Source of the DNA: an uncultured Burkholderiales bacterium
GTDB lineage: Bacteria; Pseudomonadota; Gammaproteobacteria; Burkholderiales; Burkholderiaceae_C
Reading direction: 5' to 3'
NCBI GenBank assembly: GCA_903906635.1
Contig: CAIVLE010000090.1
Location: 1-37,107, forward strand
Length of the DNA stretch: 37,107 nt
In this document: positions 7,891-35,024 of the stretch, in pieces
How positions within the stretch are numbered: position 1 is the first letter of the stretch
Layout: the number at the start of each line of letters is the position of its first letter
Translations under genes and position numbers: made by a program
The notes under the pieces: model-generated
Told to the model about the DNA's origin: nothing
Database searches by the model: none
Seen by the model: the letters and a program-made list of their open reading frames with translations, nothing else

Positions 7891-7894
7891 GCCC

Positions 7895-8533
7895 TCACTC
7901 GCCGCGCAACAAATTGGCCAACTCGACCGCGGACTTGACCGCCATCTTCTCAAACACGCGAGCCCGGTGAACTTCCACCGTGCGCACGCTGATGTCGAGC
8001 TGGTCGGCAATCAATTTATTGGGCAAACCTTCCACCACCAAACGCATCACATCGCGCTCGCGTTCGGTCAAATCGGCCAAACTCTGTTGCAAGGTTTGCT
8101 TGGCACGTTGCACTTGCAAGGTGGTCGCCGAGCGTTGCAAGGCCTGTTCGATTCGGTCCACCAAAGCGTTGTCTGAAAACGGTTTTTCACAAAAATCAAA
8201 TGCACCACGCTTGACCGCATCCACCGCCGTAGGGACATCGGCGTGGCCGGTCAAAAAAATCACCGGCAGCACATTGAGCAATTGGCGTTCGATCAGCTGC
8301 TCAAACAAGGCCAGCCCACTCATGCCCGGCATGCGCACGTCCAACAACAAACACCCCGGCTGACTGGGGCACCAAGCGGAGCGAGACGAGGCGTTCAAAA
8401 AAGCAGCAAATGCGTCAGCACTGTCAAAGGACTCACTGGGCAAACGGCGCGATCTCAGCAGCCAAGCCAAGGCTTCGCGCACGCCGGCATCGTCATCGAC
8501 GATGAAGACCAGGGCATCTTCGGAAGGTTGCAT
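7895..8533 (-). CDS. FixJ/DctR-family response regulator
   Basis: 212 residues: a receiver domain and a LuxR/FixJ helix-turn-helix. The acidic pocket VDDD lies at residues 12-15, the phospho-acceptor is Asp65 (LLLDVRMPGMSG), with Thr95 (FLTGHADV) and Lys117 (CEKPF). The DNA-binding part (about 145-208) has LTERERDVMRLVVEGLPNKLIADQLDISVRTVEVHRARVF in register with the GerE/LuxR family. GGAG eight bases before the ATG supports the start. It is placed 18 bases after the sensor kinase and is the obvious partner. The resemblance is to DctR, which controls C4-dicarboxylate uptake, but no dct transporter gene is in the window, so the regulated target is open. Confidence 0.92.
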   Translation of the reverse strand: MQPSEDALVFIVDDDAGVREALAWLLRSRRLPSESFDSADAFAAFLNASSRSAWCPSQPGCLLLDVRMPGMSGLALFEQLIERQLLNVLPVIFLTGHADVPTAVDAVKRGAFDFCEKPFSDNALVDRIEQALQRSATTLQVQRAKQTLQQSLADLTERERDVMRLVVEGLPNKLIADQLDISVRTVEVHRARVFEKMAVKSAVELANLLRGE

Positions 8534-17398: not shown

Positions 17399-17902
17399 TT
17401 ACTGGGCGCGGATCTTGGTGACCAGGGCCGTGGTCGAGTAACCATCGACAAATGCAATTGCCTGTGCGCGGCCACCATAGCCCTCGACCACCTGGGTCTC
17501 GGCAAGTTTGGACATGTCGTAATCACCCCCTTTGACCAAGATGTCAGGGCGCAACTCGCGGATGAGCTCCAACGGGGTGTCTTCGTCAAACCAAGTCACC
17601 AAACTCACCGATTCAAGGGCCGCAATGAGCGCGGCCCGGTCGGCTTGGGCATTGAGCGGTCGGTCTGGGCCTTTGCCCAAGCGACGTGCCGACGCGTCGC
17701 TGTTGAGCGCGACCACCAAGCTCCCCCCCAAAGCACGCGCTTGAGCCAAGTAGCTAGCGTGTCCTCGGTGCAACACATCGAATACGCCATTGGTGAACAC
17801 CACGGGCCCATGGGGCCGCAAAGCGGCCACGCGCTGCAAGGCCTCGGAACGCGAGGTGAGTTTGTTCAAAAACGCGGGGGCAGTCAGTGGTGTAGCGGTC
17901 AT
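17399..17902 (-). CDS. rfaE2: D-glycero-beta-D-manno-heptose 1-phosphate adenylyltransferase
   Basis: 167 residues, one cytidylyltransferase-like domain. It transfers AMP from ATP to heptose 1-phosphate to form ADP-heptose for the lipopolysaccharide inner core. The nucleotide-binding HxGH motif is His45-Arg-Gly-His48 in FTNGVFDVLHRGHASYL. LVVALNSDASARRLGKGPDRP and LRPDILVKGGDY are further family signatures. E. coli fuses this domain to the kinase in HldE; here it is a separate gene, as in other betaproteobacteria. The kinase partner (rfaE1) is not in the window. The gene starts ten bases after the light-regulator gene on the same strand, so co-transcription is likely. It converges on glnE with 31 bases between. 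Confidence 0.93.
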   Translation of the reverse strand: MTATPLTAPAFLNKLTSRSEALQRVAALRPHGPVVFTNGVFDVLHRGHASYLAQARALGGSLVVALNSDASARRLGKGPDRPLNAQADRAALIAALESVSLVTWFDEDTPLELIRELRPDILVKGGDYDMSKLAETQVVEGYGGRAQAIAFVDGYSTTALVTKIRAQ

Positions 17903-17912
17903 GGCCGCAATT

Positions 17913-18866
17913 TTAGGTGGCGTGCTCTGCACGCCAACGTTGCACCTGCGGGGCCACATCGCCCAAACCTTGCACGCAGACCACCCGCGACAGCTTACGG
18001 CGCTTGAGGGCGCTGTTTTGCCCGCCGGCCCACACCTCGGTGGTGAGGGGCAACAACGCGCACAACTCGTTCAAGCCCTCCACCACCTGCTTGGGGTTCA
18101 TGATGGCGCTGAAACTCAAGGCCACCACCTGCGCTGAATGAGCAATCGCTGCTTTGGCAATGTCTTGGATCGGCATTTGCGTGCCCAACCACAGACAATG
18201 CGCGCCCTGCAAGGCCAACAGACTCTGCGCCATCAGCAGGCCCAAGCCGTGGGGTTCTTGCGCAAAAGTAGTCAACATGACCCGTGGCGTGTTCGTCGCC
18301 TGAGCCTGAGGCAGGCTGTCCATGGCGTGGCGCAGCAAGGCAGATACGCACTCGGTGTAGAAGTGTTCTTCGTAGACCTCCATCTCGCCACGCACCCAAG
18401 CATCCCCCACGGCAGCGGTCACGGGGGCCACCACTTGCATGACAAAGGCCTCAAGCCCCAAATCGCTCCAGGCCAGATGAAGTTGCGCGCGCAAGCCCTC
18501 TGTGTCGTGGTCACGGATCAACTGCAAGTAGCGCGCCACGTGGGCATGAGGGCTGTGGGACTCGGTTGGGGTGAGCTGTGCTTGGGTGGTGGGCAGGTTT
18601 TGACTCAACCTCAGCAAGTCTTCGCTGGCCAGGGGCACCACGCGCCCGGGGCGCTGGCCTTGGTCCATCAAGCGTTTGATGAGGCGCAATTTTTCAACCT
18701 GTGCGGTGGGGTAGGTACGTTCCCCAAACGCATCCCGGCCTGGGTTTGGAAACCCGTAGCGGCGCTCCCAGATGCGCAGCGTGTCTTTGCCAATGCCCGT
18801 GTCACGCTCAACCGCAGCAATCGACAGCTGCACGGCTTTGGCGGCAGATTCAGCGCGAAAATTCAT
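17913..18866 (-). CDS. litR: MerR-family cobalamin-binding regulator of the LitR/CarH photoreceptor type
   Basis: 317 residues. Residues about 13-80 are a MerR-type winged helix (AAVERDTGIGKDTLRIWERR; RYGFPNPGRDAFGERTY). After a linker come a four-helix cap (about 108-190) and a Rossmann-like B12-binding domain (about 193-315). Two cobalamin signatures are visible: W157-x9-E167-H168, the Wx9EH motif of CarH, and E204-x-H206-x-x-G209, the ExHxxG motif that supplies the lower axial His. Family members bind adenosylcobalamin in the dark, assemble on DNA and repress; light splits the Co-C bond and releases the promoter. The residue after the Trp is Val158, where Thermus CarH has His132. The gene diverges from the nine-gene operon, which is the expected target. 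Confidence 0.88.
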   Translation of the reverse strand: MNFRAESAAKAVQLSIAAVERDTGIGKDTLRIWERRYGFPNPGRDAFGERTYPTAQVEKLRLIKRLMDQGQRPGRVVPLASEDLLRLSQNLPTTQAQLTPTESHSPHAHVARYLQLIRDHDTEGLRAQLHLAWSDLGLEAFVMQVVAPVTAAVGDAWVRGEMEVYEEHFYTECVSALLRHAMDSLPQAQATNTPRVMLTTFAQEPHGLGLLMAQSLLALQGAHCLWLGTQMPIQDIAKAAIAHSAQVVALSFSAIMNPKQVVEGLNELCALLPLTTEVWAGGQNSALKRRKLSRVVCVQGLGDVAPQVQRWRAEHAT

Positions 18867-18905
18867 GGCGGCAACAATTTCTTGGTCGGAAGGTAGTGAA
18901 GCAAG

Positions 18906-18920
18906 TTTGTCCTAGACAAA
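18906..18920. promoter_or_regulatory. Perfect inverted repeat, candidate LitR operator
   Basis: TTTGTC-CTA-GACAAA: two perfect six-base arms around a three-base centre, in the 105-base region between the divergent litR-like and peroxidase genes. It overlaps the proposed -35 box of the operon (18913-18918) and lies just downstream of a proposed litR start point, where bound protein could block both promoters. MerR-type dimers bind such symmetric sites. A shorter palindrome, AAGTACTT (18964-18971), touches the peroxidase ATG. Assignment to LitR is inferred from position. Confidence 0.55.
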
Positions 18921-18941
18921 ACAAGCAATTTACGCCATCAT
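18913..18941 (+). promoter_or_regulatory. Putative sigma-70 promoter of the nine-gene operon
   Basis: TAGACA (18913-18918, five of six matches to TTGACA), a 17-base spacer, and CATCAT (18936-18941, four of six to TATAAT). The -35 lies inside the inverted repeat. Initiation near 18948 would leave a leader of about 24 bases before the peroxidase ATG, with no clear Shine-Dalgarno. I looked for, and did not find, an ECF RpoE/ChrR-type TGATC -35. Confidence 0.35.
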
Positions 18942-18965
18942 GCACGAACTCGCATTACCTAACAA
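18937..18965 (-). promoter_or_regulatory. Putative promoter of the litR-like gene
   Basis: On the minus strand, TTGTTA (18965-18960) and CATGAT (18942-18937) are separated by 17 bases and match the sigma-70 hexamers at four of six positions each. The -10 coincides almost exactly with the -10 proposed for the opposite strand. A transcript starting near 18930 would cross the inverted repeat at about +10 to +25. Moderate matches only. Confidence 0.27.
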
Positions 18966-18971
18966 GTACTT

Positions 18972-19583
18972 ATGTCATTTCCATCAGGTTTATTTCGCAG
19001 TTTAGCCACCGGAATTTGGGCTGCAATGGTCTGTCTGTCTCCCCTGCTCGCACAGGGCGCAGAACCCGCCACTGCCACTGCAGCGCCATCTTGCCCGCGC
19101 GTGTTGCAACACACCGTGCTGCGTTTGCAAGACGAAAAGCCCCAAGCCCTGTGCCAATATGCCGGACAGGTGGTGGTGGTGGTCAACACCGCGAGCTACT
19201 GCGGCTTCACGTCGCAGTACAAGGGGCTTGAGGCGTTGTTTGCCAAGTACAAAGACCGTGGCTTGGTGCTGTTGGGTTTTCCCTCCAACGACTTTTCCCA
19301 AGAGCCAGACAGCAACGCCAAGATCGCCGACTTTTGTGAGAACACCTTCGGGGTGAAATTTCCGATGTTTGCCAAGTCAAAGGTGCAAGGATCTGACGCC
19401 TTGCCCTTGTTCAAACAACTGACCGAGCAAACTGGCAGCGCGCCTCGCTGGAACTTTTACAAGTACGTGATCAGCCGTGATGGACAACACATCAAGAGCT
19501 TTAGTTCGATGACCGGCCCACAAGACAAGTCTTTCGTGGCCGAGGTAGAAAAGCAACTGGCTGCCAAAGTCAACGGCTCATGA
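18972..19583 (+). CDS. Exported glutathione peroxidase family protein
   Basis: 203 residues. A signal peptide (about 1-30, LATGIWAAMVCLSPLLAQGA) precedes a thioredoxin-fold glutathione peroxidase domain. The catalytic tetrad is readable: Cys77 in NTASYCGFT, Gln110 in FPSNDFSQEP, and Trp160-Asn161 in RWNFYKYV. Cys replaces selenocysteine. Such enzymes reduce hydrogen peroxide or lipid hydroperoxides, usually with thioredoxin-like donors in bacteria. Export places it in the periplasm, near membrane lipids. It is the first gene of the operon, and its TGA overlaps the next ATG by four bases. The typical bacterial family member (BtuE-like) is about 160-185 residues without a leader. No clear ribosome-binding site is seen before the ATG. 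Confidence 0.9.
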   Translation: MSFPSGLFRSLATGIWAAMVCLSPLLAQGAEPATATAAPSCPRVLQHTVLRLQDEKPQALCQYAGQVVVVVNTASYCGFTSQYKGLEALFAKYKDRGLVLLGFPSNDFSQEPDSNAKIADFCENTFGVKFPMFAKSKVQGSDALPLFKQLTEQTGSAPRWNFYKYVISRDGQHIKSFSSMTGPQDKSFVAEVEKQLAAKVNGS

Positions 19584-20863
19584 AGCCACGCGTTGCCATC
19601 ATCGGCTCGGGCATCTCGGGCTTGTCTGCGGCGCACCACTTGCGCGGTCACGCACACATCACCTTGTTTGAAGCCGCAGACTATTTCGGTGGTCACACCC
19701 ACACGGTGGACGTGACTTTGCCCACGCCCCAAGGAATGCAAACGCATGGCGTGGACACCGGTTTTTTGGTGTTCAACGAGCGCACCTACCCAGGCTTGAT
19801 TGCCTTACTGGACGAATTGCAGGTACCCAGCGCCAAATCGGACATGTCGTTCTCGGTGCAAGCGCCGCAACCCCATGGCCAACGGCCCTTGGAGTGGAAC
19901 GGCTCGACCCTCAACACCGTGTTTGCCCAGCGACGCAACCTGTTCAACCCACGCTTCATTGGCATGCTGCGCGAGGTGATGCGCTTTAACGCCTTGGTCA
20001 CCCAATTGGCCTTGCGCAACCAAGACGAAGAGCTGGCCCAGCCTTTGTGCGAGTTTTTGCTGGCCAACCGCTTCGGCGAAGCTTTTTGCGATGACTATCT
20101 GCTGCCCATGCTGGGCTGCATCTGGAGTTGCCCGACCGATCAGATGCTCATGTTTCCGCTGGCCACGATGGTGCGGTTTTGCCACAACCATGGACTGGCA
20201 CAGGTCAACAACAGACCCCAGTGGCACACCGTGCGCGGTGGGGCACGCCACTATGTTGACAAAATCATCGCGCACATCCAAGACAAGCGCCTGAACTGCG
20301 CCGTGACCCGCATTGAACGCGACACACAAGGCGTGACGGTCCACACCGCATCGACCAGCGAGCGTTTTGACGCCGTGGTACTCGCCACCCACGCCGACCA
20401 ATCTTTGGCCATGCTGTCCCAGCCCAGTGCACAAGAAATGCGTACCCTTGGGGCGGTGCGCTACCACCCGAACCTGGCGGTGCTGCATACCGATACCTCG
20501 GTGATGCCCAGCAAAAAGCTCGCTTGGGCCGCTTGGAATTACCAACGTGCAGAAAAGCAAGGCAGCGACAACGCACCCGTCTGCCTGCATTACTGGCTCA
20601 ACCAATTGCAGCCTTTGCCCTTTACCGAGCAAGTGTTTGTGTCGCTCAATCCAATCCACGAGATCAGCCCCGAGCGGGTGATTGGCAGCTACCACTACGC
20701 ACATCCGGTGTTTGACTTGGCCGCGATAGAAGCGCAGGCTCAGGTGCCTGCGCTGCAAGGCCAACAGCACACTTGGTATGCCGGCGCATGGATGGGATAC
20801 GGCTTTCACGAAGATGGCTTCAAAGCCGGGCGGGACGCCGCGTTGGGGGTGTTGGCGCGATGA
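19580..20863 (+). CDS. FAD/NAD(P)-binding amine-oxidase-like oxidoreductase (COG2907)
   Basis: 427 residues. The N-terminal dinucleotide-binding motif is IIGSGISGLSAAHHL (about residues 7-21), followed by FEAADYFGGHTHTV and the family motif GVDTGFLVFNERTYPGL (about 56-72). The C-terminus, WYAGAWMGYGFHEDGFKAG, closes the flavin site. The reaction is not established. The family accompanies DUF1365 and cyclopropane-synthase genes in many bacteria. In Rhodobacter sphaeroides, as I recall, a homologue belongs to the singlet-oxygen regulon and is needed for furan fatty acids. Start and upstream stop share ATGA, and the end overlaps the next gene in the same way, so expression is tightly coupled. 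Confidence 0.9.
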   Translation: MKPRVAIIGSGISGLSAAHHLRGHAHITLFEAADYFGGHTHTVDVTLPTPQGMQTHGVDTGFLVFNERTYPGLIALLDELQVPSAKSDMSFSVQAPQPHGQRPLEWNGSTLNTVFAQRRNLFNPRFIGMLREVMRFNALVTQLALRNQDEELAQPLCEFLLANRFGEAFCDDYLLPMLGCIWSCPTDQMLMFPLATMVRFCHNHGLAQVNNRPQWHTVRGGARHYVDKIIAHIQDKRLNCAVTRIERDTQGVTVHTASTSERFDAVVLATHADQSLAMLSQPSAQEMRTLGAVRYHPNLAVLHTDTSVMPSKKLAWAAWNYQRAEKQGSDNAPVCLHYWLNQLQPLPFTEQVFVSLNPIHEISPERVIGSYHYAHPVFDLAAIEAQAQVPALQGQQHTWYAGAWMGYGFHEDGFKAGRDAALGVLAR

Positions 20864-21639
20864 GCACCACAGCACGCGCGCACATGGCTCAACCCTTGCT
20901 GGGTTTGGGCCAAGTGCGCCATACGCGCTTGCGCCCCACGCGCCATGCGTTTGACTACGCCACGTATTTTTTGCTGTTGCCCATGCGCAGTTTGGCCGCT
21001 GGCAGCCCAAGCGCGCTGGCCATCAACCGAGCGGGGCTGATGAGCTTTCACGATGTAGACCACGGCGACGGGCGCAACACGGCGCAAGGTGGCGCGTTGG
21101 CATGGTTGGATGAGGTACTGCAGCAAGCAGGCATCCACGACGCCAAAGGCGAGGTCTGGCTGCACTGCTACCCGCGGGTGCTGGGCTATACCTTCAAGCC
21201 CGTGAGTTTTTGGTATTGCCACACAGCCGATGAGCAATTGCGCGCGATCGTGGTTGAAGTGAACAACACCTTCGGTGAGCGTCACTGCTACTTGCTAGAC
21301 CGCCCACGCTGGGGGGTTGAGCAAGTCGCCACCAAGGTGTTTCATGTGTCGCCGTTTTGCGCCATCGAAGGCTGCTATCGTTTTCGCTTCATGCGCACCA
21401 CTGATCGCACCGTCGCCCGAATCGAGCACGACGATGCCCAGGGCCCGCTGATTCAAACCAGTGTCAGCGGCGTGTTGGTGCCGGCCAGCTTGGCGGCACA
21501 GCGACAAGCCTTGTGGCGCTTTCCTTGGATGACCTTGATGGTGATGCTGCGCATCCACTGGCAAGCGCTGCAGCTGTGGCGCAAGCGTGTGCGGTTTTTC
21601 ACCAAGCCCAACCCTCCAACCGATTTTGTGACCCGTTGA
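20860..21639 (+). CDS. DUF1365 family protein
   Basis: 259 residues; the ATG at 20860 overlaps the previous stop (ATGA), which decides the start over upstream in-frame codons. DUF1365 (COG3496) features are RHTRLRPTRHAFDYATYFLLL near residue 20, CYPRVLGYTFKPVSFWYC near 103-120, VEVNNTFGERHCYLL and KVFHVSPFCAIEGCYRF. The biochemical role is unknown. The family is found almost always between a COG2907 oxidoreductase and a CFA-type methyltransferase, as here, which points to modification of acyl chains. A C-terminal hydrophobic segment (WMTLMVMLRIHWQALQLW) could rest on the membrane. Confidence 0.9.
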   Translation: MSTTARAHMAQPLLGLGQVRHTRLRPTRHAFDYATYFLLLPMRSLAAGSPSALAINRAGLMSFHDVDHGDGRNTAQGGALAWLDEVLQQAGIHDAKGEVWLHCYPRVLGYTFKPVSFWYCHTADEQLRAIVVEVNNTFGERHCYLLDRPRWGVEQVATKVFHVSPFCAIEGCYRFRFMRTTDRTVARIEHDDAQGPLIQTSVSGVLVPASLAAQRQALWRFPWMTLMVMLRIHWQALQLWRKRVRFFTKPNPPTDFVTR

Positions 21640-21642
21640 CCG

Positions 21643-22896
21643 ATGCCCCCAAGCACCATGAACACCACCTCCTCATCTCCTAGCTCTGAGCCCGTTTCGC
21701 CCAAGACGCTCGATATGCCTGCCAGCGCCCGCCGTGTCGTGGCCATGCTGGACCAACTGCGCCACGGCCACTTGCGTGTGGTGTGGCCCGATGGCAACAG
21801 CACCCACTTTGGCGCTCACGATGCAGGGGGGCTATCGGCACAGCTGCACCTGCACAACTTCAAGCCTTTGAGTGAGGCCATCAAATCTGGGGACATTGGA
21901 TTTGCCGAAGGCTTCATCGCAGGCGACTGGACCACGCCCGATTTGCCCGCACTGCTGCGACTCTTGGTGGCCAATCGGCGTGAGATGGATGATTTGATTT
22001 ATGGCCATTGGTTGGGCCGTTTGGTCTACCGCGTGCGGCATTTGCTCCACCGCAACACCAAGCGCAACAGCGCCAAAAACATCCATGCCCATTACGACTT
22101 GGGCAATGCGTTTTACCAGCTGTGGCTGGACCCCACCATGAATTACTCATCGGCCTGGTTCGGCGATGACCCAAGCCAAGACTTGTCGCACGCCCAAAAC
22201 GCCAAAGTGCATCGCGCCTTGTGCATGGTGCAAGCCAAACCCGGTGACCGGGTGATGGAGATCGGTTGCGGCTGGGGCGCTTTGGCAGAAATGGGCGGCC
22301 TCGAATTTGGCGCCCGCATGCACGGCGTCACTTTGAGCCACGAGCAACTGGCTTACGCCCAAGCACGCATGCAGCGCTTGGGCTTGTCTGGCAGCAGCGA
22401 CTTGCGCCTGCAAGATTACCGCGACATCGACGACGGCCCCTATGACGCCATTTGTTCCATCGAAATGCTCGAAGCCGTGGGCCAAGAGTATTGGCCTACT
22501 TACTTTGAGACCGTGCAGCGACTGCTCAAACCCGGTGGCAAGGCGTGTATCCAAACCATCGTGATCGACGACGCCTTGTTTGACCGCTATGTCAAAAGCA
22601 CGGACTTCATTCAGCAGTACATCTTTCCGGGCGGCTGCTTGCCCTGCCCACGCGAGTTCCGCGCCCACGCTGCGGCAGCGGGCCTGCGCGTCGTGGACGA
22701 GATGGCCTTTGGTCTTGACTATGCCGAGACGCTGCGTCGCTGGCGCCACGCGTTCTTAGCCGAGCAGTCCCGCGTGTTGGCCTTGGGCTTTGACGAACGC
22801 TTTGTACGCATTTGGGATTTTTACTTGGCTTATTGCGAAGCGGCCTTTGAGCAAGCCAACACCGACGTGGTGCAGTACACGCTTGAGAGGCTGTGA
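21643..22896 (+). CDS. cfa: Cyclopropane-fatty-acyl-phospholipid synthase family methyltransferase
   Basis: 417 residues. The N-terminal lipid-binding part (about 25-125) precedes an SAM methyltransferase domain with motif I VMEIGCGWGALAEMG (about residues 205-219). NAKNIHAHYDLGNAFYQLWL-type family residues lie near 145-165, and EAVGQEYWPTYF and FPGGCLP follow. The enzyme moves a methyl group from SAM to the double bond of unsaturated phospholipid acyl chains, giving a cyclopropane ring or, in some homologues, a methyl branch that leads to furan fatty acids. It starts three bases after the DUF1365 stop; an ATG five codons later (21658) is an alternative. Which of the two products is made cannot be told from sequence. 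Confidence 0.93.
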   Translation: MPPSTMNTTSSSPSSEPVSPKTLDMPASARRVVAMLDQLRHGHLRVVWPDGNSTHFGAHDAGGLSAQLHLHNFKPLSEAIKSGDIGFAEGFIAGDWTTPDLPALLRLLVANRREMDDLIYGHWLGRLVYRVRHLLHRNTKRNSAKNIHAHYDLGNAFYQLWLDPTMNYSSAWFGDDPSQDLSHAQNAKVHRALCMVQAKPGDRVMEIGCGWGALAEMGGLEFGARMHGVTLSHEQLAYAQARMQRLGLSGSSDLRLQDYRDIDDGPYDAICSIEMLEAVGQEYWPTYFETVQRLLKPGGKACIQTIVIDDALFDRYVKSTDFIQQYIFPGGCLPCPREFRAHAAAAGLRVVDEMAFGLDYAETLRRWRHAFLAEQSRVLALGFDERFVRIWDFYLAYCEAAFEQANTDVVQYTLERL

Positions 22897-23474
22897 TGCA
22901 GCGCAGGCGCTGGCTCATGGCTTTGCTGTCTTGTGCCTGTGCTGCTGGGTTCGCTCGTGCGCAAGACAGCGCCTCCTCCAAAGAGTTGCTGGCGCAAACT
23001 TTGCAGCAACTGCGCCCCTTGCTGGGCAACCCTCGTTTGGTCGGTGAACACCGCTTGACCTACTGGGGATTTGAGGTGTACCACGCCAGACTGTGGGCCA
23101 ACAGCGCTGCGTTTTCACCCGCCGATTGGGCCTCGCAACGCCTGGTGCTGGAGTTGCGTTATTTGCGGGACTTTCAAGGCCACGACATCGCCCAACGCTC
23201 GATCACCGAAATACAAAACCAAGGCCCGCTGAGCGCCGAACGCTCCGCCGCTTGGCGACAAAGCTTGCAGTTGCTGATGCCCAATATACGCAAGGGCGAG
23301 ACGCTCACGGGGGCCTACCTGCCCGAGTCGGGCGCACAGTTTTGGCACCAAGGCCAAGCCCTGGGCGAGATTCGCGACACAGAGTTTGCGCGCCGCTTTT
23401 TCGGCATTTGGCTCTCCCCCCAAAGTTCGCAGCCGGTGTTGCGTCAACAGTTACTGGCTGGCGCCTCGCTGTGA
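22896..23474 (+). CDS. Exported chalcone-isomerase-like protein
   Basis: 192 residues from the ATG that overlaps the cfa stop by one base (TGATG), with GAGAGG six bases upstream; a GTG one codon earlier is also possible. A signal peptide (about 1-22, WLMALLSCACAAGFARA) is followed by a domain resembling bacterial chalcone-isomerase-like proteins: LTYWGFEVYHARLWA, LVLELRYLRDFQGHDIAQRSI, GAYLPESGAQFWHQG and FARRFFGIWLSPQS. Bacteria have no flavonoid pathway for it to serve. In plants the same fold also occurs as fatty-acid-binding proteins, so periplasmic acyl-chain binding is a reasonable guess given the neighbours. Confidence 0.82.
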   Translation: MQRRRWLMALLSCACAAGFARAQDSASSKELLAQTLQQLRPLLGNPRLVGEHRLTYWGFEVYHARLWANSAAFSPADWASQRLVLELRYLRDFQGHDIAQRSITEIQNQGPLSAERSAAWRQSLQLLMPNIRKGETLTGAYLPESGAQFWHQGQALGEIRDTEFARRFFGIWLSPQSSQPVLRQQLLAGASL

Positions 23475-24769
23475 CGAACCACTGGCGCACCACGGTGTGG
23501 CGCAAGCTGGCGTGGCTGAGGTTGAATTGGATGGCGATGCCATTGGCTTTTGTCAGCTTGCCTTTGTATGTGATGCTGCCACACCGCTACGCCAGCGCAT
23601 GGGGTGTGCCATTGGCCAGCTTAGGGGCTTTGTTGCTGTGCGTTCGCGCCCTCGATGCGGTGCTTGACCCCTGGCTGGGGGCCCGATGTGATGGCTGGTT
23701 TGCCCACGGCATGCCCCGGGTGCTCACGCGCACGGGCATGTTGTGCGGCCTGTTGGCGCTGGGTTTTGCGGGCCTGTGGTTGCCCGATGTGTGGCTGGGC
23801 TCGCTGGGTCTGCACGTGACGCCCGAGACCGTGCTGGCCATGGCCGCCCCGTGTTTGGTGCTGGCGTACTTGGGGGCGACCTGCTTGAACTTGGGGCTGC
23901 AGTCGTGGGGGACGCGACTGGGGGGCCACGCCTCTCAACAAAGCCTGATCGTGGCCTGGCGCGAAGGCTTGGGGTTGCTGGGCGTGGTGCTGGCCTCGGT
24001 CTTGACGGCTTGGGTGGATGCCCCTGCGCTGGTGATCGCGTTGACGCTGGCGCTTACTCTGGGCTGGTGGTTGTGGCGCTCAGCACCGTTTCCAACGCAT
24101 CCCCCGCTGCAAAGCGTCGCGGCATCGGACAGCGGGGCTGGGCCGCTGCAGCGGCCTGCCTTTCGTGCGCTGCTGCAAGTTTTTTTGCTCAATGGCATCG
24201 CCAGCGCAGTGCCTGCAACCTTGGTGATGTTTTACATCCAAGACCAATTGCAAGCGCCCAGCGGTTATGAAGCACGCTACTTGGGCGCGTACTTTGTCGC
24301 GGCAGCGGTCTCGCTCCCGTTGTGGCTGTGGGTGGTTCGCCGCGTGGGCTTGTTGCGCGCCTGGGGGGTGGGCATGGTCTTGGCCATGGGCGTGTTCATG
24401 TGGACAATGGGTTTAGGGGCAGGGGACTTGTTGGGTTTTGGCGTGATTTGCGCCTTGTCGGGTGTGGCGCTTGGGGCCGACTTGGTGGTGCCAGGCGCGT
24501 TGTTGACGGGGGTGATTCAACAAGCCGGTGACAGCGGCGCACGCGAAGGCCGCTATCTGGGGTGGTGGCAAGTCGCCACCAAACTCAACCTGGCTCTGGC
24601 CGCTGGTCTGAGCTTGCCCGCCTTGCAAGTGCTGGGCTACACCCCAGGGGCGCACAATGCATCTGGTCTGTGGGCTTTGACGCTGGCTTACGGTGTGCTG
24701 CCTTGTGGGTTGAAATTTTTGGCTGCGTGGCGTTTGTGGACGCTGCGCCATGTGTTGCAGGAGAACTGA
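23471..24769 (+). CDS. GPH/MelB-type MFS transporter
   Basis: 432 residues. The GTG at 23471 overlaps the previous TGA by four bases (GTGA) and begins MTNHWRTTVWRKLAWLRLNW; in-frame upstream codons lie inside the preceding gene and are rejected. Eleven or twelve hydrophobic helices fill the chain, and RALDAVLDPWLGARCDGW (about 57-74) is the conserved loop 2-3 motif of the glycoside-pentoside-hexuronide (GPH, COG2211) group. The substrate is unknown. Homologues occur in the R. sphaeroides singlet-oxygen operon, so a lipid-related rather than sugar substrate is possible. It lies between lipid-modification genes and ends one base before the next gene. Confidence 0.88.
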   Translation: MTNHWRTTVWRKLAWLRLNWMAMPLAFVSLPLYVMLPHRYASAWGVPLASLGALLLCVRALDAVLDPWLGARCDGWFAHGMPRVLTRTGMLCGLLALGFAGLWLPDVWLGSLGLHVTPETVLAMAAPCLVLAYLGATCLNLGLQSWGTRLGGHASQQSLIVAWREGLGLLGVVLASVLTAWVDAPALVIALTLALTLGWWLWRSAPFPTHPPLQSVAASDSGAGPLQRPAFRALLQVFLLNGIASAVPATLVMFYIQDQLQAPSGYEARYLGAYFVAAAVSLPLWLWVVRRVGLLRAWGVGMVLAMGVFMWTMGLGAGDLLGFGVICALSGVALGADLVVPGALLTGVIQQAGDSGAREGRYLGWWQVATKLNLALAAGLSLPALQVLGYTPGAHNASGLWALTLAYGVLPCGLKFLAAWRLWTLRHVLQEN

Positions 24770-24770
24770 C

Positions 24771-25319
24771 ATGATGAACCGTAGAAAACTGTTGCTCAGT
24801 GGCACGGGAACGCTGGTGGGTGCCGCCAGCTTGATGGGCTGCGCAGGCCCCAGCGTGGACGATTACGCCAACGAGCGCCCGCTGCTGGACTTGCGTGAGT
24901 ATTTCAACGGCATGGTGGACGCTTGGGGCGTGTTCACCGACCGCAATGGCCAAGTGGTCAAGCGCTTCACCGTGGTGATGAACTGCCAATGGCAAGGTGA
25001 CAACGGTGTGCTGGACGAAGACTTTGTGTATTCGGATGGCACCCAAGAGAAACGCATTTGGCGCTTGAAACATCTGGGCAACGGCGCCTACAGCGGCAGC
25101 GCAGGCGACGTGGTGGGCATGGCCCAAGGTCAAACCCGTGGCAACAGCTTTCGCTGGGGCTACACCTTGGCACTTCCCGTCAACGGTCAGGTCTGGCACG
25201 TACAAATGGACGACTGGATGTACCTGATGAACTCCAAGGTCATGCTCAACAAAGCGCGCATGACCAAGTGGGGCTTGCACCTGGGTGACGTGACCTTGTC
25301 GTTCCAGCGAAGGGCTTGA
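24771..25319 (+). CDS. DUF3833 lipoprotein
   Basis: 182 residues from ATG 24771, with AGGAG eight bases upstream (a second ATG follows at 24774). The leader MMNRRKLLLSGTGTLVGAAS ends in the lipobox LMGC (Cys near 28), and its RRKLLL could also suit Tat export. The mature part is a beta-rich domain with LREYFNGMVDAWGVFTDRNG, FTVVMNCQW and the C-terminal MDDWMYLMNSKVMLNKA of the DUF3833 family. Its activity is unknown. The family travels with CFA synthase, SDR and LitR-type genes in many proteobacteria. It is probably anchored in the inner or outer membrane facing the periplasm. Confidence 0.88.
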   Translation: MMNRRKLLLSGTGTLVGAASLMGCAGPSVDDYANERPLLDLREYFNGMVDAWGVFTDRNGQVVKRFTVVMNCQWQGDNGVLDEDFVYSDGTQEKRIWRLKHLGNGAYSGSAGDVVGMAQGQTRGNSFRWGYTLALPVNGQVWHVQMDDWMYLMNSKVMLNKARMTKWGLHLGDVTLSFQRRA

Positions 25320-25320
25320 A

Positions 25321-26094
25321 ATGCAAGCAATGAACCCACCCATGCGCGATTGGTCAGGCCGCAGTGTGTGGCTGATTGGGGCGTCGAGCGGCATCGGTTT
25401 GGCCACTGCGCATGCGCTGCATGCCGCAGGAGCCCGCGTCGTGGTGTCTGCGCGTCAAAGTGATTTGTTGGCTCAGTTTGTTTTATCCCACCCGAACGCA
25501 CATGCATTCACCTTGGATGTCACCGATGCACCAGCTACGCGCGAGGTGGCGCTCCAAGTCCAAGCGCTGCAAGGCCTTGACGTGGTGGTCTTTTGCGCCG
25601 GCTATTACAAAGCGGTCCGCGCGACACACTATTCGCTGCCAGAAATGTTGCGCCACCAAGCCGTCAACTACACCGGAGCGCTGCACATGCTCGACGCCGT
25701 GTTGCCCAGCTTGCTGCAGCAAGGTCATGGCCACATCAGTTTGATTTCTAGCGTTGCAGGCTACCGTGGCTTGCCGCAAAGCCTGGCTTATGGCCCGACC
25801 AAGGCCGCGTTGACGCACTTGGCCGAGGCACTCTACATGGATCTGGCTTGCCAAGGGCTTGGTGTGAGCGTGATCCACCCTGGCTTTGTTGCCACGCCGT
25901 TGACCGCGCAAAACACCTTCAAAATGCCGGCCATGATCAGCCCCGAACAAGCCGCTCAAGCCATGCTGCAAGGCTGGGCTCAGGGGCTGTTTGAAATCCA
26001 CTTTCCCAAGCGCTTTACGCGTTGGCTCAAGATGTTGCGACTGCTGCCCTACCGGTGGTACTTTGCCATCGTGCACCGCGCCACAGGCATGTGA
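25321..26094 (+). CDS. Short-chain dehydrogenase/reductase
   Basis: 257 residues. The NAD(P)-binding motif is GASSGIG (about residues 20-26). The catalytic Ser lies in LISSVAGYRG (near 143), and YGPTK (near 156) holds the Tyr-x-x-x-Lys pair. The C-terminus FPKRFTRWLKMLRLLPYRWYFAIV is basic and hydrophobic and may contact membranes. It begins one base after the DUF3833 stop. The substrate is unknown; by context it could act on a lipid or a lipid-derived aldehyde or ketone. Confidence 0.9.
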   Translation: MQAMNPPMRDWSGRSVWLIGASSGIGLATAHALHAAGARVVVSARQSDLLAQFVLSHPNAHAFTLDVTDAPATREVALQVQALQGLDVVVFCAGYYKAVRATHYSLPEMLRHQAVNYTGALHMLDAVLPSLLQQGHGHISLISSVAGYRGLPQSLAYGPTKAALTHLAEALYMDLACQGLGVSVIHPGFVATPLTAQNTFKMPAMISPEQAAQAMLQGWAQGLFEIHFPKRFTRWLKMLRLLPYRWYFAIVHRATGM

Positions 26095-26101
26095 GGCGCC
26101 C

Positions 26102-26569
26102 ATGCCAACCCCACAAAACACACCCGACACACAAGAAGCCGCACTGGCACGCGTGGTGAGTTTTTTTGAGCAGATGCAACCAGGTGATGTGTCACTTCTG
26201 GGTGATGTCTACTGTCACGATGCCCATTTCAAAGACCCTTTCAACGAGGTGACGGGTGTGCCCGCCATTCAAGGGATTTTTGAGCACATGTTCAAGACCC
26301 TGCATGCACCACGCTTTGTCATCACCCAGTCCATTCAACAAGGCGCGCAATGCTGTGTGACCTGGGATTTCATCTTTGAGTTTCGCAACTTTGCGGGCGG
26401 TACGCCGCAAATCATCCGAGGCGCCAGTCATTTGGTACTGCGCGAAGACTGTGGCACATGGCGCGTGGCGGTGCACCGCGACTACTGGGATGCAGCCGAA
26501 GAGCTCTACGAAAAATTACCCGGGGTGGGCGCTGTGATGCGCTGGCTCAAGCGCCGCGCCAACGCCTGA
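26102..26569 (+). CDS. NTF2-like/SnoaL-fold protein, last gene of the operon
   Basis: 155 residues from ATG 26102, seven bases after the dehydrogenase stop; an open frame upstream lies inside the dehydrogenase gene and is not coding. The cone-shaped NTF2-like fold is suggested by VVSFFEQMQPGDVSLLGDVY, HDAHFKDPFNEVTGVPAIQGIFEHMF, CCVTWDFIFEF and GASHLVLREDCGTWRVAVHRDYWD. Such proteins bind or isomerise small hydrophobic molecules. The same family closes related LitR- and RpoE-linked operons, as I recall. No signal peptide is present, so it should be cytoplasmic. Confidence 0.85.
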   Translation: MPTPQNTPDTQEAALARVVSFFEQMQPGDVSLLGDVYCHDAHFKDPFNEVTGVPAIQGIFEHMFKTLHAPRFVITQSIQQGAQCCVTWDFIFEFRNFAGGTPQIIRGASHLVLREDCGTWRVAVHRDYWDAAEELYEKLPGVGAVMRWLKRRANA

Positions 26570-26572
26570 GAC

Positions 26573-26594
26573 AAAAAAGCCCGCTGCGCTGCGG
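26573..26594 (-). terminator. Possible rho-independent terminator of the glutathione S-transferase gene
   Basis: On the minus strand CCGC-AGCGCA-GCGG forms a short hairpin followed, after GC, by six T. It lies 30 bases past the stop of the transferase gene. The stem is only four pairs, so the call is tentative. On the plus strand the hairpin has no T-run, so it does not obviously end the nine-gene operon. Confidence 0.4.
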
Positions 26595-26623
26595 ACCTCG
26601 GCCCAGACAGCCTCACGGGCGCA

Positions 26624-27238
26624 TCAAGACGCCAGCGTGTCTTGAAAACTTGGGCGCTGTGCTAACCGCTCGTACAAAGCGGCCAGACTGGGATGGTCAC
26701 TGCGCCAATCGATGTAGGCAAAACGAAAATCCAAATAACCCAGCGCACACCCCACAGCGATGTCGGCCAAGCTCATGTGAATGCCCATGCAATAAGTGCG
26801 CTCAGCCAAAGCACGTTCCATAGACGTGAGGCTGTCGTCGATTTTTTTCATCTGACGCTCAATCCACGCTTGGCTGCGCTGTGTCTCGGTGCGTCCCGGC
26901 CAATGGGCTTCCAAGCGTGCCAAGATCGCTGCATCCAGCAAACCATCGGCCAAGGCCTCCCAAGTTTTGACCGCGGCACGGTCTCGCCCACCCGAGGGAA
27001 TGAGCTTGCCCACCGGGGACAAGGTGTCCACGTATTCCACGATGACGCGCGAGTCAAAGAGGGCCTCGCCACCTTCCATGATCAAACAAGGCACTTTGCC
27101 TAATGGGTTGGCTTGTGTGATCTGCGTGTCGGCGGACCAGACGTCTTCAAGCAAAAACTGGTAGTCCAGCTTTTTCTCAGCCATGACGATGCGCACTTTA
27201 CGCACGTAAGGACTGGTGATGGCGCCGATGAGTTTCAT
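26624..27238 (-). CDS. Glutathione S-transferase family protein
   Basis: 204 residues. An N-terminal thioredoxin-like domain (MKLIGAITSPYVRKVRIVMAE; candidate active Ser9 before Pro10) contains the glutathione-binding NPLGKVPCLIMEGGEALFDSRVI (about 44-66, with the cis-Pro and the Asp-Ser pair). An all-helical C-terminal domain follows. The start at 27238 fits the family; a TTG three codons earlier is less likely. The protein resembles bacterial transferases such as E. coli YibF and stringent-starvation-type proteins. The substrate is unknown. It is convergent with the lipid operon, and its upstream region is shared with purB. Confidence 0.92.
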   Translation of the reverse strand: MKLIGAITSPYVRKVRIVMAEKKLDYQFLLEDVWSADTQITQANPLGKVPCLIMEGGEALFDSRVIVEYVDTLSPVGKLIPSGGRDRAAVKTWEALADGLLDAAILARLEAHWPGRTETQRSQAWIERQMKKIDDSLTSMERALAERTYCMGIHMSLADIAVGCALGYLDFRFAYIDWRSDHPSLAALYERLAQRPSFQDTLAS

Positions 27239-27364
27239 ACGTGGCAAAGTTATTTCGAAGCCAGAATTTTAACGAGGCTGTGAGCACCCTTTGCCGCCCA
27301 CATCGCTCAACACGCTCGCAAAGCACCATCGGCACTTAGATATCGCGAGCGATCCCCCAGCACC

Positions 27365-31861: not shown

Positions 31862-32353
31862 ATGTCTACCCTCACACACTTTGACGGCCAAGGCCAAGCC
31901 CATATGGTCGATGTTGCCGACAAGGCGCACACCCGCCGCGTGGGTGTGGCGGGCGGACGCATCCACATGCTGCCCGCCACGTTTGCACTGGTTCAAAACG
32001 GAACGGCCAAAAAAGGGGACGTGTTGGGCATTGCGCGCATTGCCGGTATTCAAGCCGCCAAGAAAACGAGTGATCTGATTCCGCTGTGCCACCCGCTGGC
32101 TTTGACACGCGTCGCCGTGGCATTTGAACTCGACGCGATATCTCACAGCATCGCCTGCATGGCCACGGTCGAAACGGTGGGGCAAACTGGCGTTGAGATG
32201 GAGGCCCTGACTGCTGTGCAAGTGGCTTTGCTGACCATTTACGATATGTGCAAAGCGGTCGATAGGGGCATGACCATCACCGATGTGCGCTTGCTAGAAA
32301 AGCATGGCGGTAAGTCGGGAAGTTATGTGGCGGCATCGAGCCAAACTGGCTGA
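31862..32353 (+). CDS. moaC: Cyclic pyranopterin monophosphate synthase
   Basis: 163 residues. MoaC rearranges the 3',8-cyclo-GTP made by MoaA to cyclic pyranopterin monophosphate, the first intermediate of molybdenum cofactor. From the ATG at 31862, Lys51, Asp128 and Lys131 (in [12 protein letters not shown]) fall at the same numbers as the catalytic residues of E. coli MoaC, which supports this start over a GTG four codons upstream. [16 protein letters not shown] and [10 protein letters not shown] are further signatures. No other moa gene is in the window. The 3' end overlaps the oppositely oriented oxidoreductase gene by 31 bases. Confidence 0.96.
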
Positions 32354-33384
32354 CCCGAACGCACACTTTGGGCCAGCGCTTGCAGTGTGGCAGCAATGTC
32401 CATGCTGGCGCTCGCGGCCCGCTCGATGGCTGCCACATCGTTGTTGCGCACGACCTGTGCGAATGCCTCAGCGGCAAATCGAAAGCCACTGCCCGTGGCG
32501 GAAGTGATGTCTTCAAACGGCACATGATTGGCGATGCCGGCGCGCAGGCGCATTTGGCTGGGCAAATAGCCCCATGGGTGCGTGTGCGAGGTGCTGGTGT
32601 GGTTGAGGTACTCGGTTTCGATCGTGCCGTGGGTGCCCACCACGGTGGCGCGACGGTGGTTGGCGGCGTCCATGGCGCACGACATGTGTGCCCGGCGGCC
32701 GTCGGCATAAAACAAAGTTCCCATCATGCTGATGTCCACGCCTGTGTCTGCCCAGCTGGCGTGCGCGAGCACCTGCTGCGGGGCACAGCCCATGACCAAG
32801 CGAATAAAGCTCAAAGGATAGCTGCCGGCATCCAACAAAGCGCCACCCCCCATCTCCGGCTTCATACGAATATTGGTGTCTGGGTTACCCACGGTAAATC
32901 CAAAGCTCGCGTGTACGCTGCGGATGCTGCCAATGCCTGGGCCAGTGCTGCCATGCAGGCGCTGCAACAAGTCACGGGTTTGGGGTTGGAACCAATAGGG
33001 ATAGGCCTCCAGCAACAAGCGCTGGTGTTGCCTGGCAGCGCCAAACATCGCCTGTGCTTGGGCATGGCTCAAGGCCAGCGGTTTTTCACACAACACATGC
33101 TTGCCGGCCTCTAGTGCGCGGATGGCCCACGTCGCGTGCATGTGGTTGGGCAAGGGGATATAAACAGCGTCAAGCTGCGGATCTTCCAGCAAGGCCTCGT
33201 AGCTGCCAAAGGCGCGCTCAATGCCCCAATTTCGGCAAAAGTCTTGGGCTTTTGCCAAGTCACGGCTGGCCGCTGCGGCCACCGTGACCTGTGCACTGCC
33301 CATGACGTCTCGCACAAATTGTTTGGCAATATTGGCGCAACCTAAAACGCCGAGTCGCAAGGCGGGTGGGTGAGTAGCTGGCAT
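32323..33384 (-). CDS. Gfo/Idh/MocA family oxidoreductase
   Basis: 353 residues from ATG 33384, with AGGA about nine bases upstream; 14 open codons before it are not used. An N-terminal Rossmann domain ([14 protein letters not shown], about 11-24) and the family motif CEKPLALSH (about 98-106) are followed by an alpha/beta domain with [21 protein letters not shown]. It resembles trans-1,2-dihydrobenzene-diol dehydrogenase-like members that oxidise sugars or cyclic diols with NAD(P). The substrate is unknown. The gene is separated by 60 bases from the glycosyltransferase genes on the same strand, so a role in sugar metabolism for surface glycans is possible but unproven. Confidence 0.9.
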
Positions 33385-33444
33385 GTTGGTTGTCCTTGCG
33401 TTGAATGTGTTCCGCACCCCGGCCATGTGGGTGATAGCGGTGCA

Positions 33445-34242
33445 TCAGGTGATGCTTTTTTGCAAAATCTTAGCCCGCACAATGGCCGCATTCTTGGCGG
33501 CAGTTTCTTGGCTGGCCGTCTTGTGCCACAAGTGCAACACCTCAGTGGCCCAGCTGCCCGATTTGCGCAACACGCCCGCTTGTTGAAGGCGAAAGACAAA
33601 GTCCGCGTCTTCGTGACCCCAGCCCTCTAGCGATTCGTCAAAGCCACGGATGTGCTGCACATCGTCTCGCCACGCGCTCATGTTGCAGCCCTTGATACGG
33701 CTCCATACGAATTTCTTGTACAAGCGTGTTGCTAAGTCAGGCATCTTGACCATCAAAGGCAAGCACTTGTTCATTTGTCCTTGAAGACGAAAGCGCCAAG
33801 CCTGTTGGCTAAAGGCTGCGTAGTCCCACACACCGGCGGCGCACAAGGTCTGGGTCAAGCCGGGCGCAAGCAAGATGCGGCTGCCTGTGACCATGACGCC
33901 GACTTGCGCCAAGCGGCGGTGCTGGGCAATGAAGTCAGGTTGGACCAAACAATCGCCGTCTAAAAAAACGAGGTACTCCCCATGCGCAGCAGCGATGGCT
34001 TGGTTGAGTATCTTGGCCTTGCGAAAGCCCGCATCGGGCTGCCACACATGCTGCAAGGGCACGGGCAAGTGCGACTGGTGACGCGCAATGAGTTCGGCCG
34101 TCTCAGAGGTCGACCCATCGTCGGCAATGACCACTTCAAAGTTCTTGTCTCGCTGTTGCGCCAAAGCCTGTAAACACAACTCCAAGGCCTGGGGCCAGTT
34201 GTAGGTGGCCAAGACCACGGTGATCAATGCGGGGGTTGGCAT
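33445..34242 (-). CDS. Family 2 glycosyltransferase
   Basis: 265 residues, GT-A fold. ITVVLATYNWPQALELCLQAL opens the nucleotide-sugar domain. Asp41-Asp42 lie in VVIADDGSTSET, FLDGDC near residue 96 is the DxD-type metal site, and GFDESLEGWGHEDADFVFRL is the acceptor-side ED motif typical of galactosyl/GalNAc-type members. The ATG at 34242 has GAGG close upstream and overlaps the preceding gene by 19 bases, so the two transferases are translationally coupled. It probably adds a sugar to lipopolysaccharide core or to a pilin glycan; donor and acceptor are unknown. Confidence 0.9.
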   Translation of the reverse strand: MPTPALITVVLATYNWPQALELCLQALAQQRDKNFEVVIADDGSTSETAELIARHQSHLPVPLQHVWQPDAGFRKAKILNQAIAAAHGEYLVFLDGDCLVQPDFIAQHRRLAQVGVMVTGSRILLAPGLTQTLCAAGVWDYAAFSQQAWRFRLQGQMNKCLPLMVKMPDLATRLYKKFVWSRIKGCNMSAWRDDVQHIRGFDESLEGWGHEDADFVFRLQQAGVLRKSGSWATEVLHLWHKTASQETAAKNAAIVRAKILQKSIT

Positions 34243-35012
34243 GGGCCTCTTTCTTGTTGGATCAACCACAGTTTGAGGTAGCGGTAGTAGGTGCCTTCGG
34301 CGTTGGAGATGGCCAAGGCCAAGCCTTGCGGGCCATCGCGCCAAGACGCTTTGAACACATAGGTTCGGATGAAGGCCCACAAGCCATGCCGAACGGCTTT
34401 GCCGACGCTGGCAGTTTTGCCCCTTGCATACAGCTGTTGGGCCGACGCGCTGGAATAGCGATCCACTTTGTCGAGCACTTGGCTGAAGGTGCGAAAGCTG
34501 TAGTGCAACAAGGCCGTGTTCAAGGACTGCACGGTAGCTTGGGTCAAGATTTTTTCGTGCACCAAGTCTTGACTGAATGCCGCAGCGCCGCGTTTGAACA
34601 ACCGCAGCACAAGGTCGGGGTACCACCCGCCATGGCGCATGAACTTGCCGCAATACCAAGACAGCCTTGGAATTTCGTAAGCAGTGTCTTGCGGGTTTCG
34701 TATCAGGACTTGTTGAATTTCTGCCGCCAGCTCACGGGGCACGCGCTCATCGGCATCGAGCGAGAGGACCCACTCGCAAGTCGCCAACGCCAGGGCTCGG
34801 TTTTTCTGTGGGCCAAAGCCTGGCCAATCCGCAGGTTGCGACACGATAGCGCCGTAGCGCTTGGCAATCTCCACGGTGTTGTCGGTACTTTGGCTGTCGA
34901 CCACCACAATTTCATTCACCCACTCTTTCAAAGACGACAGGCATTCTTCCAAGTTATGCCCCTCGTTGCGGGTAATCACAATGACAGAGATCGTGGCTGG
35001 GGGCGTTGTCAT
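34224..35012 (-). CDS. WaaE/KdtX-like family 2 glycosyltransferase
   Basis: 262 residues. ISVIVITRNEGHNLEECLSSL, EIVVVDSQSTDNTVEIAKRYGA, FGPQKNRALALATCEWVLSLDADERV (DxD near residue 88) and HGGWYPDLVLRLFKRGAA match the WaaE/KdtX group. These add a beta-linked glucose to heptose of the lipopolysaccharide inner core. The gene follows the PglL-type ligase by 12 bases. The closeness to a PglL gene leaves open that it builds the glycan used on pilin instead. No membrane helix is obvious; such enzymes work at the cytoplasmic face. Confidence 0.9.
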   Translation of the reverse strand: MTTPPATISVIVITRNEGHNLEECLSSLKEWVNEIVVVDSQSTDNTVEIAKRYGAIVSQPADWPGFGPQKNRALALATCEWVLSLDADERVPRELAAEIQQVLIRNPQDTAYEIPRLSWYCGKFMRHGGWYPDLVLRLFKRGAAAFSQDLVHEKILTQATVQSLNTALLHYSFRTFSQVLDKVDRYSSASAQQLYARGKTASVGKAVRHGLWAFIRTYVFKASWRDGPQGLALAISNAEGTYYRYLKLWLIQQERGPCQPPH

Positions 35013-35024
35013 GGGGTGGTCCGT

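Follow-up and report, generated by a model that had tools for sequence, protein, structure and literature searches.

The contig CAIVLE010000090.1 of an uncultured Burkholderiales bacterium (assembly GCA_903906635.1), whose 37,107 nucleotides are called the window here, carries a nine-gene operon predicted to make an antioxidant furan lipid of the membrane, and divergent from it a gene for a cobalamin-binding regulator of the CarH/LitR type. A palindrome in the gap between the two is a plausible direct operator of LitR at the operon promoter. The system is real, conserved and well delimited, with known enzymes and a known kind of regulator; the pairing and the operator were not found described in the literature searched. 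Its surprising parts are a natural CarH without the His132 of the Thermus protein and a repeated exchange of the sensor beside the operon. Taken as a whole, a light- and B12-responsive LitR switch acting on the palindrome and controlling a furan-lipid operon is in our judgement the probable explanation of the locus.

In the mechanism that we propose, cobalamin-loaded LitR, a CarH-type repressor, would occupy the palindrome at 18906-18920 in the dark, covering the -35 element of the nine-gene promoter and probably also limiting its own transcription. Light would break the Co-C bond, LitR would leave the DNA and the operon would be transcribed as one unit. UfaM would then add a methyl group to cis-vaccenoyl chains of membrane phospholipid and form no cyclopropane ring, UfaD would desaturate the product and UfaO would insert O2-derived oxygen, giving a methyl-furan fatty acid that would quench singlet oxygen from the cell's own bacteriochlorophyll. 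The periplasmic glutathione peroxidase (GPx)-like protein would probably handle peroxides, and transport or binding of the modified lipid in the envelope would probably fall to the MFS_2 transporter, the Chalcone_3 protein and the DUF3833 lipoprotein.

Gene content of the locus and its host

A first-pass annotation of this DNA had listed ten open reading frames (ORFs), with a CarH/LitR gene divergent from nine closely joined genes, and all of this agrees with the ORF listing and the sequence. The gap between litR (minus strand) and the nine close-set genes (18972-26569) is 105 bases, and the junctions across the operon, read from the sequence, are -4, -4, +3, -1, -4, +1, +1 and +7; the -1 junction becomes -4 if the Chalcone_3 gene starts at the GTG at 22893 rather than at the ATG at 22896. 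The features are the following.

17913..18866, minus strand: litR/carH, MerR helix-turn-helix (HTH) and cobalamin-binding regulator, 317 aa (Pfam, CarH model, Thermus CarH alignment)
18906..18920, strandless: predicted LitR operator TTTGTCCTAGACAAA, palindrome core TTGTCNNNGACAA (enriched in LitR-linked relatives)
18913..18941, plus strand: predicted sigma70-type operon promoter, TAGACA, 17 nt, CATCAT (-35 = right half of the palindrome)
18972..19583, plus strand: exported glutathione peroxidase-like protein, gpx (Pfam; signal peptide by eye)
19580..20863, plus strand: UfaD homologue, COG2907-type flavoprotein, putative acyl desaturase step (Pfam; function from PMC7380195)
20860..21639, plus strand: UfaO homologue, DUF1365, putative furan-ring oxygenation step (Pfam; function from PMC7380195)
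21643..22896, plus strand: UfaM homologue, CMAS-family S-adenosylmethionine (SAM) methyltransferase (Pfam; Ser170 and Gln304 in place of the Cys and His of true Cfa)
22896..23474, plus strand: exported Chalcone_3 (chalcone-isomerase-like) protein, optional member (Pfam; signal peptide by eye)
23471..24769, plus strand: MFS_2/GPH-type transporter, positional counterpart of RSP1089, optional member (Pfam)
24771..25319, plus strand: DUF3833 lipoprotein, positional counterpart of RSP1088, optional member (Pfam; LMGC lipobox by eye)
25321..26094, plus strand: short-chain dehydrogenase (SDR), positional counterpart of RSP1087 (Pfam)
26102..26569, plus strand: NTF2/SnoaL-like protein, final operon gene (Pfam)

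The Pfam search confirmed the gene families that had been named for the operon, giving in order GSHPx, Amino_oxidase, DUF1365, CMAS, Chalcone_3, MFS_2, DUF3833, adh_short and SnoaL_2. On the regulator, MerR_1 and B12-binding_2 scored above cut-off and the Rossmann-type B12-binding domain reached 28 bits, just under its cut-off of 32.1.

The source assembly comprises 3.03 Mb in 262 contigs and is 92% complete, and among named proteins LitR is most similar to one from Limnohabitans, with 89% identity. Two PF00124 reaction-centre genes, which we read provisionally as pufL and pufM, share contig C171 of this genome with a PF00494 (crtB-type) gene (G000:C171:15656-17363 and 7618-8370), and because of these genes the host is probably an aerobic anoxygenic phototroph, a way of life common in the genus according to the title of a reference. 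The reaction-centre genes were absent from the earlier reading. That reading had also noted that photolyase and crtB are missing, which is right for the neighbourhood of litR and wrong for the genome, where photolyase-family and PF00494 genes occur elsewhere.

The predicted furan-lipid enzymes and a signature of UfaM

The Rhodobacter sphaeroides pathway to the furan fatty acid 9M5-FuFA starts with the methylation of cis-vaccenate chains by UfaM; UfaD (RSP1091) then desaturates the methylated chain, and oxygen derived from O2 is added by UfaO (RSP1090, DUF1365). 9M5-FuFA is lost when cells are exposed to singlet oxygen and shields them against it, and single deletions of RSP1087, RSP1088 and RSP1089 left the fatty acids without detectable change (PMC7380195). 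The UfaD and UfaO reactions were assigned in 2020 (PMC7380195), and the earlier remark that several families of the operon lack a known reaction does not hold for these two.

The suggested kinship of the operon with the R. sphaeroides singlet-oxygen and furan-fatty-acid module is borne out by the families and the order of the ufa genes: RSP1091-1087 encode UfaD, UfaO, a GPH symporter (RSP1089), a 186-aa hypothetical protein (RSP1088) and an SDR (RSP1087), the same order as in the window (PMC7380195, PMC7074977). RSP1088 has been matched to a 'lipoprotein' of Pseudomonas syringae (PMC5507510), and from its place and size we infer that it is a DUF3833 protein. UfaM is shared as well, and so would be the protective role against singlet oxygen (PMC7380195). 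In R. sphaeroides, however, ufaM (RSP2144) lies elsewhere and RpoE-ChrR is the regulator, whereas the window operon includes ufaM together with GPx, Chalcone_3 and NTF2-like genes and has CarH/LitR divergent from it; the Chalcone_3 gene stands between UfaD-UfaO-UfaM and MFS_2-DUF3833-SDR, with the GPx and NTF2-like genes on the flanks. By this likeness, the three enzymes probably carry out the same reactions in the present organism, and the nine-gene operon would make an antioxidant furan lipid of the membrane.

UfaO was present in 37 of 200 genomes of the phylum, our own included, and at the 36 other loci UfaD adjoins it in every case, with a UfaM-type match above 80 bits in the stretch in 31. 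The CMAS-like gene might nevertheless be an ordinary cyclopropane synthase, with the operon making cyclopropane or simple methyl-branched lipids instead of furan lipids; family models do name the gene CMAS/CFA, and similar genes are annotated as CFA synthases (PMC5507510, PMC5241685). Against this, the Cys and His of the catalytic pocket in the three best-matching solved Cfa enzymes (5z9o, 6bqc, 7qos) correspond to Ser170 and Gln304 here. The same replacement was found at all 140 fetched loci whose best UfaM-type match covers both sites, with Ser, Ala or Gly (122, 15 and 3) at the first and Gln (140) at the second, in a set where one contig is counted twice and the choice of the best match per locus favours UfaM over any Cfa paralogue. 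Glu277, Ile306 and Tyr360 are retained across these matches. The second CMAS-family gene of locus L233, the sole one above 80 bits beside a phylum locus, carries Cys and His. In our own genome ufaM of the window is the single full-length CMAS match, three others being partial and weak. With UfaD and UfaO adjoining throughout the phylum loci, we regard a cyclopropane synthase as quite improbable.

We take the replaced Cys and His to be the residues that hold the bicarbonate base of Cfa. If these roles hold, UfaM would be unable to close the ring by the bicarbonate route, in keeping with a methyl-olefin product. Caution comes from a study in which the 10-methylene-forming BfaB was chosen for its conserved bicarbonate site (PMC7791843).

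A predicted operator at the operon promoter

The palindrome TTTGTCCTAGACAAA lies in the litR-gpx gap, and the pattern TTTGTCNNNGACAAA has no second match in the genome. Its right half forms the -35 element of the predicted promoter, which is the sole sigma70-like plus-strand site found by the promoter scan in 17800-27300, and a similar layout of promoter and palindrome is visible by eye in several relatives. Among 24 LitR-side intergenic regions, the core TTGTCNNNGACAA was exact in 10, had one mismatch in 9, two in 4 and more in 1, against a shuffle expectation of 0 exact, 0.3 with one mismatch and 2.6 with two; in L035 and L040 the top-scoring match is not the conserved one.

A wider scan covered 1800 bases upstream of ufaD, with the rows grouped by listed regulator. 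The core was exact in 17 and within one mismatch in 29 of the 41 LitR-linked rows, compared with 2 and 10 of the 79 rows without a listed regulator, none (exact or within one mismatch) of the 8 TetR rows, and 0 and 1 of the 13 ChrR rows. With 19 permuted palindromes in place of the core, the LitR rows gave on average 0.21 exact matches and 2.53 with at most one mismatch, and the 79 rows lacking a listed regulator gave 0.11 and 5.63. The window is among the 41 LitR rows, and a single contig enters them twice, as L036 and as L091; because the motif was read off the window, the remaining rows are a fair test of it, though one dependent on kinship.

A wider LitR regulon in the same genome was considered and set aside, as three further exact TTGTCNNNGACAA sites lie inside or at the end of ORFs (by eye), none of them upstream of an evident stress gene in the ORF listing, read by eye with no family search. 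Within one mismatch the genome holds 127 sites, versus 60 for the reversed control pattern. In two photolyase stretches no site within one mismatch lies upstream of the photolyase gene; the stretch from L062 has one such site, about 5 kb from that gene. In the literature, the operator letters matched as short fragments; among the matches listed, no paper was relevant or contained the whole palindrome.

Six operons without LitR (L111, L117, L128, L136, L139 and L148) have a different dyad, approximately ACTGNNCAGTCACAAA, beside a TGACA-N17-TAAACT promoter upstream of gpx, which looks like the site of another regulator. As another candidate, a TGATC-type motif of extracytoplasmic function sigma factors was sought upstream of the named operons and rejected: a scan of 320 bases, possible for 73 of the 80 regions, gave 4 scattered matches.

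Conservation of the pairing and exchange of regulators

Relatives were compared in 61 genomes, 37 of them in the genus and many of them incomplete, with thresholds of at least 200 bits for LitR and E ≤ 1e-20 for UfaO. LitR occurs in 26 of the 61, and 25 of these also carry UfaO. The two genes share a contig in 23 of the 25 (window included), four of these with intervening genes such as FolE2; in the remaining two they are probably split by a contig break (G025, by eye) or lie apart (G052). The pairing of litR with the operon is thus more than chance. The comparison of gene order across relatives, which had been suggested from the first-pass annotation, supports the linkage and at the same time shows that the operon does not always have LitR as its partner: within the genus, UfaO is in 33 of 37 genomes and LitR in 19.

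In other families a gene for a FolE2-type GTP cyclohydrolase stands between litR and ufaD (L046, L049, L050, L051; by eye, with Pfam for L050), an insertion that echoes the folE of the Pseudomonas LitR regulon.

Among the named UfaO loci, taken as the best 80 of 582 confirmed stretches, LitR lies in the fetched stretch of 18. Divided by their nearest listed upstream neighbour, the other 62 comprise 24 loci with a diiron desaturase-like gene or rfaE2, 10 with glnE, 7 with a photolyase-related gene and 5 with TetR; a further 9 have no listed gene there, 6 run into a contig edge and 1 lacks its 5' part. Two of the TetR examples and one example each of the DPRP, FolE2 and desaturase-like families were confirmed by Pfam; the gene names rfaE2, glnE, gst and purB are presumptive. 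At L204 and L205, from two other Burkholderiales families, TetR occupies the same divergent place, and at L226 and L227 in the wider phylum UfaD-UfaO-MFS_2-DUF3833-SDR lie beside RpoE-ChrR, with ChrR above cut-off in both and the sigma factor confirmed in L226.

At named Comamonadaceae loci without LitR, the gene divergent from the ufa operon is often a diiron fatty-acid-desaturase/AurF-like one (e.g. L090:7568-8431); no such gene is adjacent in the window. Divergent in the place of litR, two Limnohabitans loci carry a DPRP (photolyase-related) gene (L139:6295-7833 and L159:6170-7762, with Pfam for L139), and no litR in the fetched stretch.

A FastTree phylogeny of UfaD and UfaO (150 rows, several long branches) was used only for counting label changes. 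The labels were LitR 41, TetR 8, ChrR 13, none 79 and unlabelled 9, where 'none' marks rows that have no listed regulator up to 3.3 kb from ufaD and does not imply absence of regulation, and where ChrR and TetR labels are tblastn matches, with family models checked for 4 of 13 and 2 of 8; UfaD and UfaO of L091, a contig of the same genus from a named Limnohabitans MAG, are identical to those of G023:C53. The regulator labels need 23 changes on this tree, versus 54.9 when shuffled. LitR alone needs 16, at least 10 of them forced by starred branches, and the direction of change is not given by the tree. The regulator next to the operon thus varies among relatives: it is CarH, TetR or RpoE-ChrR in some, and others have no listed one.

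RpoE-ChrR next to the operon in other Proteobacteria, together with the many relatives that keep the operon without LitR, could be taken to mean that the divergent arrangement is fortuitous, a singlet-oxygen sigma factor running the operon as in Rhodobacter and LitR regulating only itself. But ChrR scored above cut-off in none of the 61 genomes, with weak matches in 30 (the best of our own genome being 29.9 bits, versus 124.5), and RpoE-ChrR was rejected as the local regulator on this result; moreover, the operator tracks LitR across rows and the predicted promoter beneath it faces the operon. A fortuitous neighbourhood is accordingly very improbable.

More tentatively, and as a possibility to which we lean somewhat less than to its opposite, the furan-lipid operon may be a plug-in protective module whose adjacent sensor has been exchanged many times: a His132-less B12 photoreceptor that anticipates light, a singlet-oxygen sigma factor that responds to damage, a TetR whose signal might be a lipid product, or no sensor at all. 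The Burkholderiales CarH clade would then have its own dark-state site and a light release that does not need bis-His ligation.

Proposed light and cobalamin control by LitR

LitR can be aligned with Thermus CarH over most of its length and carries the motifs W157-x9-E167-H168 and E204-x-H206-x-x-G209. Among the fetched loci, 46 LitR homologues score above 150 bits, the window protein being one, and all 46 have the Wx9EH capping residues and lower-axial His motif unchanged; these two motifs jointly define CarH homologues (PMC8156234). Such conservation would be in keeping with B12-dependent repression and release in the light.

Several observations weigh against a light- and B12-responsive LitR switch on a furan-lipid operon. 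For the regulator itself, the NCBIfam CarH model is the best family match (E 2e-35), and LitR is not a CarH equivalog by this model because its 122.4 bits miss the 400-bit cut-off. The SignatureFinder pattern for CarH-type proteins comprises GxxW, EH, GxxH and GxxxP (PMC11796333); the window protein has GxxW, EH and one GxxxP, and the Gly of GxxH is Gln203, a position occupied in 45 LitR homologues by Gln (25), Gly (12) or others (8). No counterpart of Thermus His132, which would stand beside the Trp, was found in any of 50 LitR homologues (Met 25, Ala 9, Val 5, others 11). In Thermus CarH this His is the upper cobalamin ligand in the light and is tied to the break-up of the tetramer, and the H132A variant stays mostly tetrameric after light, although the same paper cites an earlier report of H132A disassembly (PMC10442372). 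A search of our own genome for the CobA/BtuR type of adenosyltransferase, the type to which it was limited, found none in the 92% that is assembled.

On the DNA side, the promoter scan gave 2 sites on both strands versus 2.4 expected in shuffles and by itself is therefore no evidence, 12 of the 41 LitR rows have no site within one mismatch in the scanned stretch (for L046, an exact site does occur beyond it), and the CarH-type 11-bp direct repeat nAnnTnnACAn, of which CarH operators have three or four copies, is not enriched, the window score being reached by 48 of 60 shuffles. L197 (exact) and L196 (one mismatch) retain the LitR operator upstream of gpx, with no full-length LitR found in either genome, which may reflect recent loss or an assembly gap. 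On the side of the operon, the homology of the window Ufa proteins to those of R. sphaeroides is drawn from family and gene order, and L202 and L203, genus loci without LitR, have no UfaM between UfaO and DUF3833. PF00124 genes occur in 11 of 19 genus genomes with LitR versus 17 of 18 without, and LitR is therefore not tied to phototrophy.

The lack of His132, the behaviour of Thermus H132A and Gln203 would also suit a LitR that acts through the palindrome but not mainly as a light switch, reporting adenosylcobalamin or the redox/oxygen state, or depending on a second protein in the way that class II LitR depends on a LOV protein (PMC9758184). However, other light-responsive cobalamin proteins likewise lack this His and have Arg, Gln or Tyr instead (PMC11796333), and the residues capping the adenosyl group are intact throughout the LitR homologues. 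We therefore consider this explanation unlikely, and retain light release of cobalamin-bound LitR as the better account.

Accessory genes

The gpx product keeps C77, W160 and N161 and has Asp107 at the usual position of the catalytic Gln, as do 72 of 73 homologues. This Gln takes part in catalysis in glutathione peroxidases, and because Asp replaces it, the reductant or the activity may differ. At LitR-linked loci of the genus, Chalcone_3, MFS_2 and DUF3833 are absent in varied combinations, and GPx, UfaD, UfaO, UfaM, SDR and NTF2 are present wherever the contig reaches; an exception outside this set, L054, has no SDR or NTF2 match. Judging from their families, the three optional proteins may serve lipid handling in the envelope.

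Further along the window, a surface-polysaccharide cluster is suggested at 32323-36758 by oxidoreductase, glycosyltransferase and O-antigen-ligase-like ORFs (names by eye).

Comparison with known systems

The class II LitR proteins PplR and PmlR of Pseudomonas putida and P. mendocina, which act with a short LOV protein, are light-released LitR-family repressors whose site overlaps the -35 element; the pmlR1 cluster holds phrB, an SDR, a FAD-oxidoreductase and ufaM, of which phrB and ufaM are strongly light-induced (PMC9758184). Light control of the ufa module by LitR is thus not new as such, since light induction of ufaM via LitR has been published in Pseudomonas. These class II proteins, however, are not thought to bind B12 and are released by the LOV protein, whereas the window LitR has the full cobalamin ligands; their site is TGTACA-N12-TGTACA as against TTGTCNNNGACAA, and phrB belongs to the Pseudomonas cluster (PMC9758184).

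CarH of Thermus, Bacillus and Myxococcus shares the HTH domain, Wx9EH, the lower-ligand His and an operator overlapping the target promoter, but is known for carotenoid genes; the Thermus and Bacillus proteins bind 11-bp direct repeats, and Thermus has the His132 that is absent here (PMC8156234, PMC10442372). In Vibrio cholerae, blue light induces the CFA-annotated VC1122, and the title of the paper credits MerR and ChrR; no B12 link or ufa operon anatomy was met in the available part (PMC5241685). In the literature searched, with most subscription papers outside its coverage, no title among the matches listed concerned a class I LitR beside ufa genes, and no paper combining LitR, DUF1365 and photolyase was found.

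Significance

The locus pairs a putative B12-type photoreceptor with the predicted synthesis of a membrane antioxidant lipid in a probable freshwater phototroph, a host in which self-made bacteriochlorophyll would generate singlet oxygen. It provides a defined predicted operator and a reporter with a single promoter, and its CarH, naturally lacking His132, lends itself to probing what bis-His ligation does. Annotation readily mistakes UfaM for a cyclopropane synthase, and the Ser/Gln signature gives a quick means of separating the two. Through the exchange of regulators, anticipating light and reacting to damage would become comparable on the same operon.

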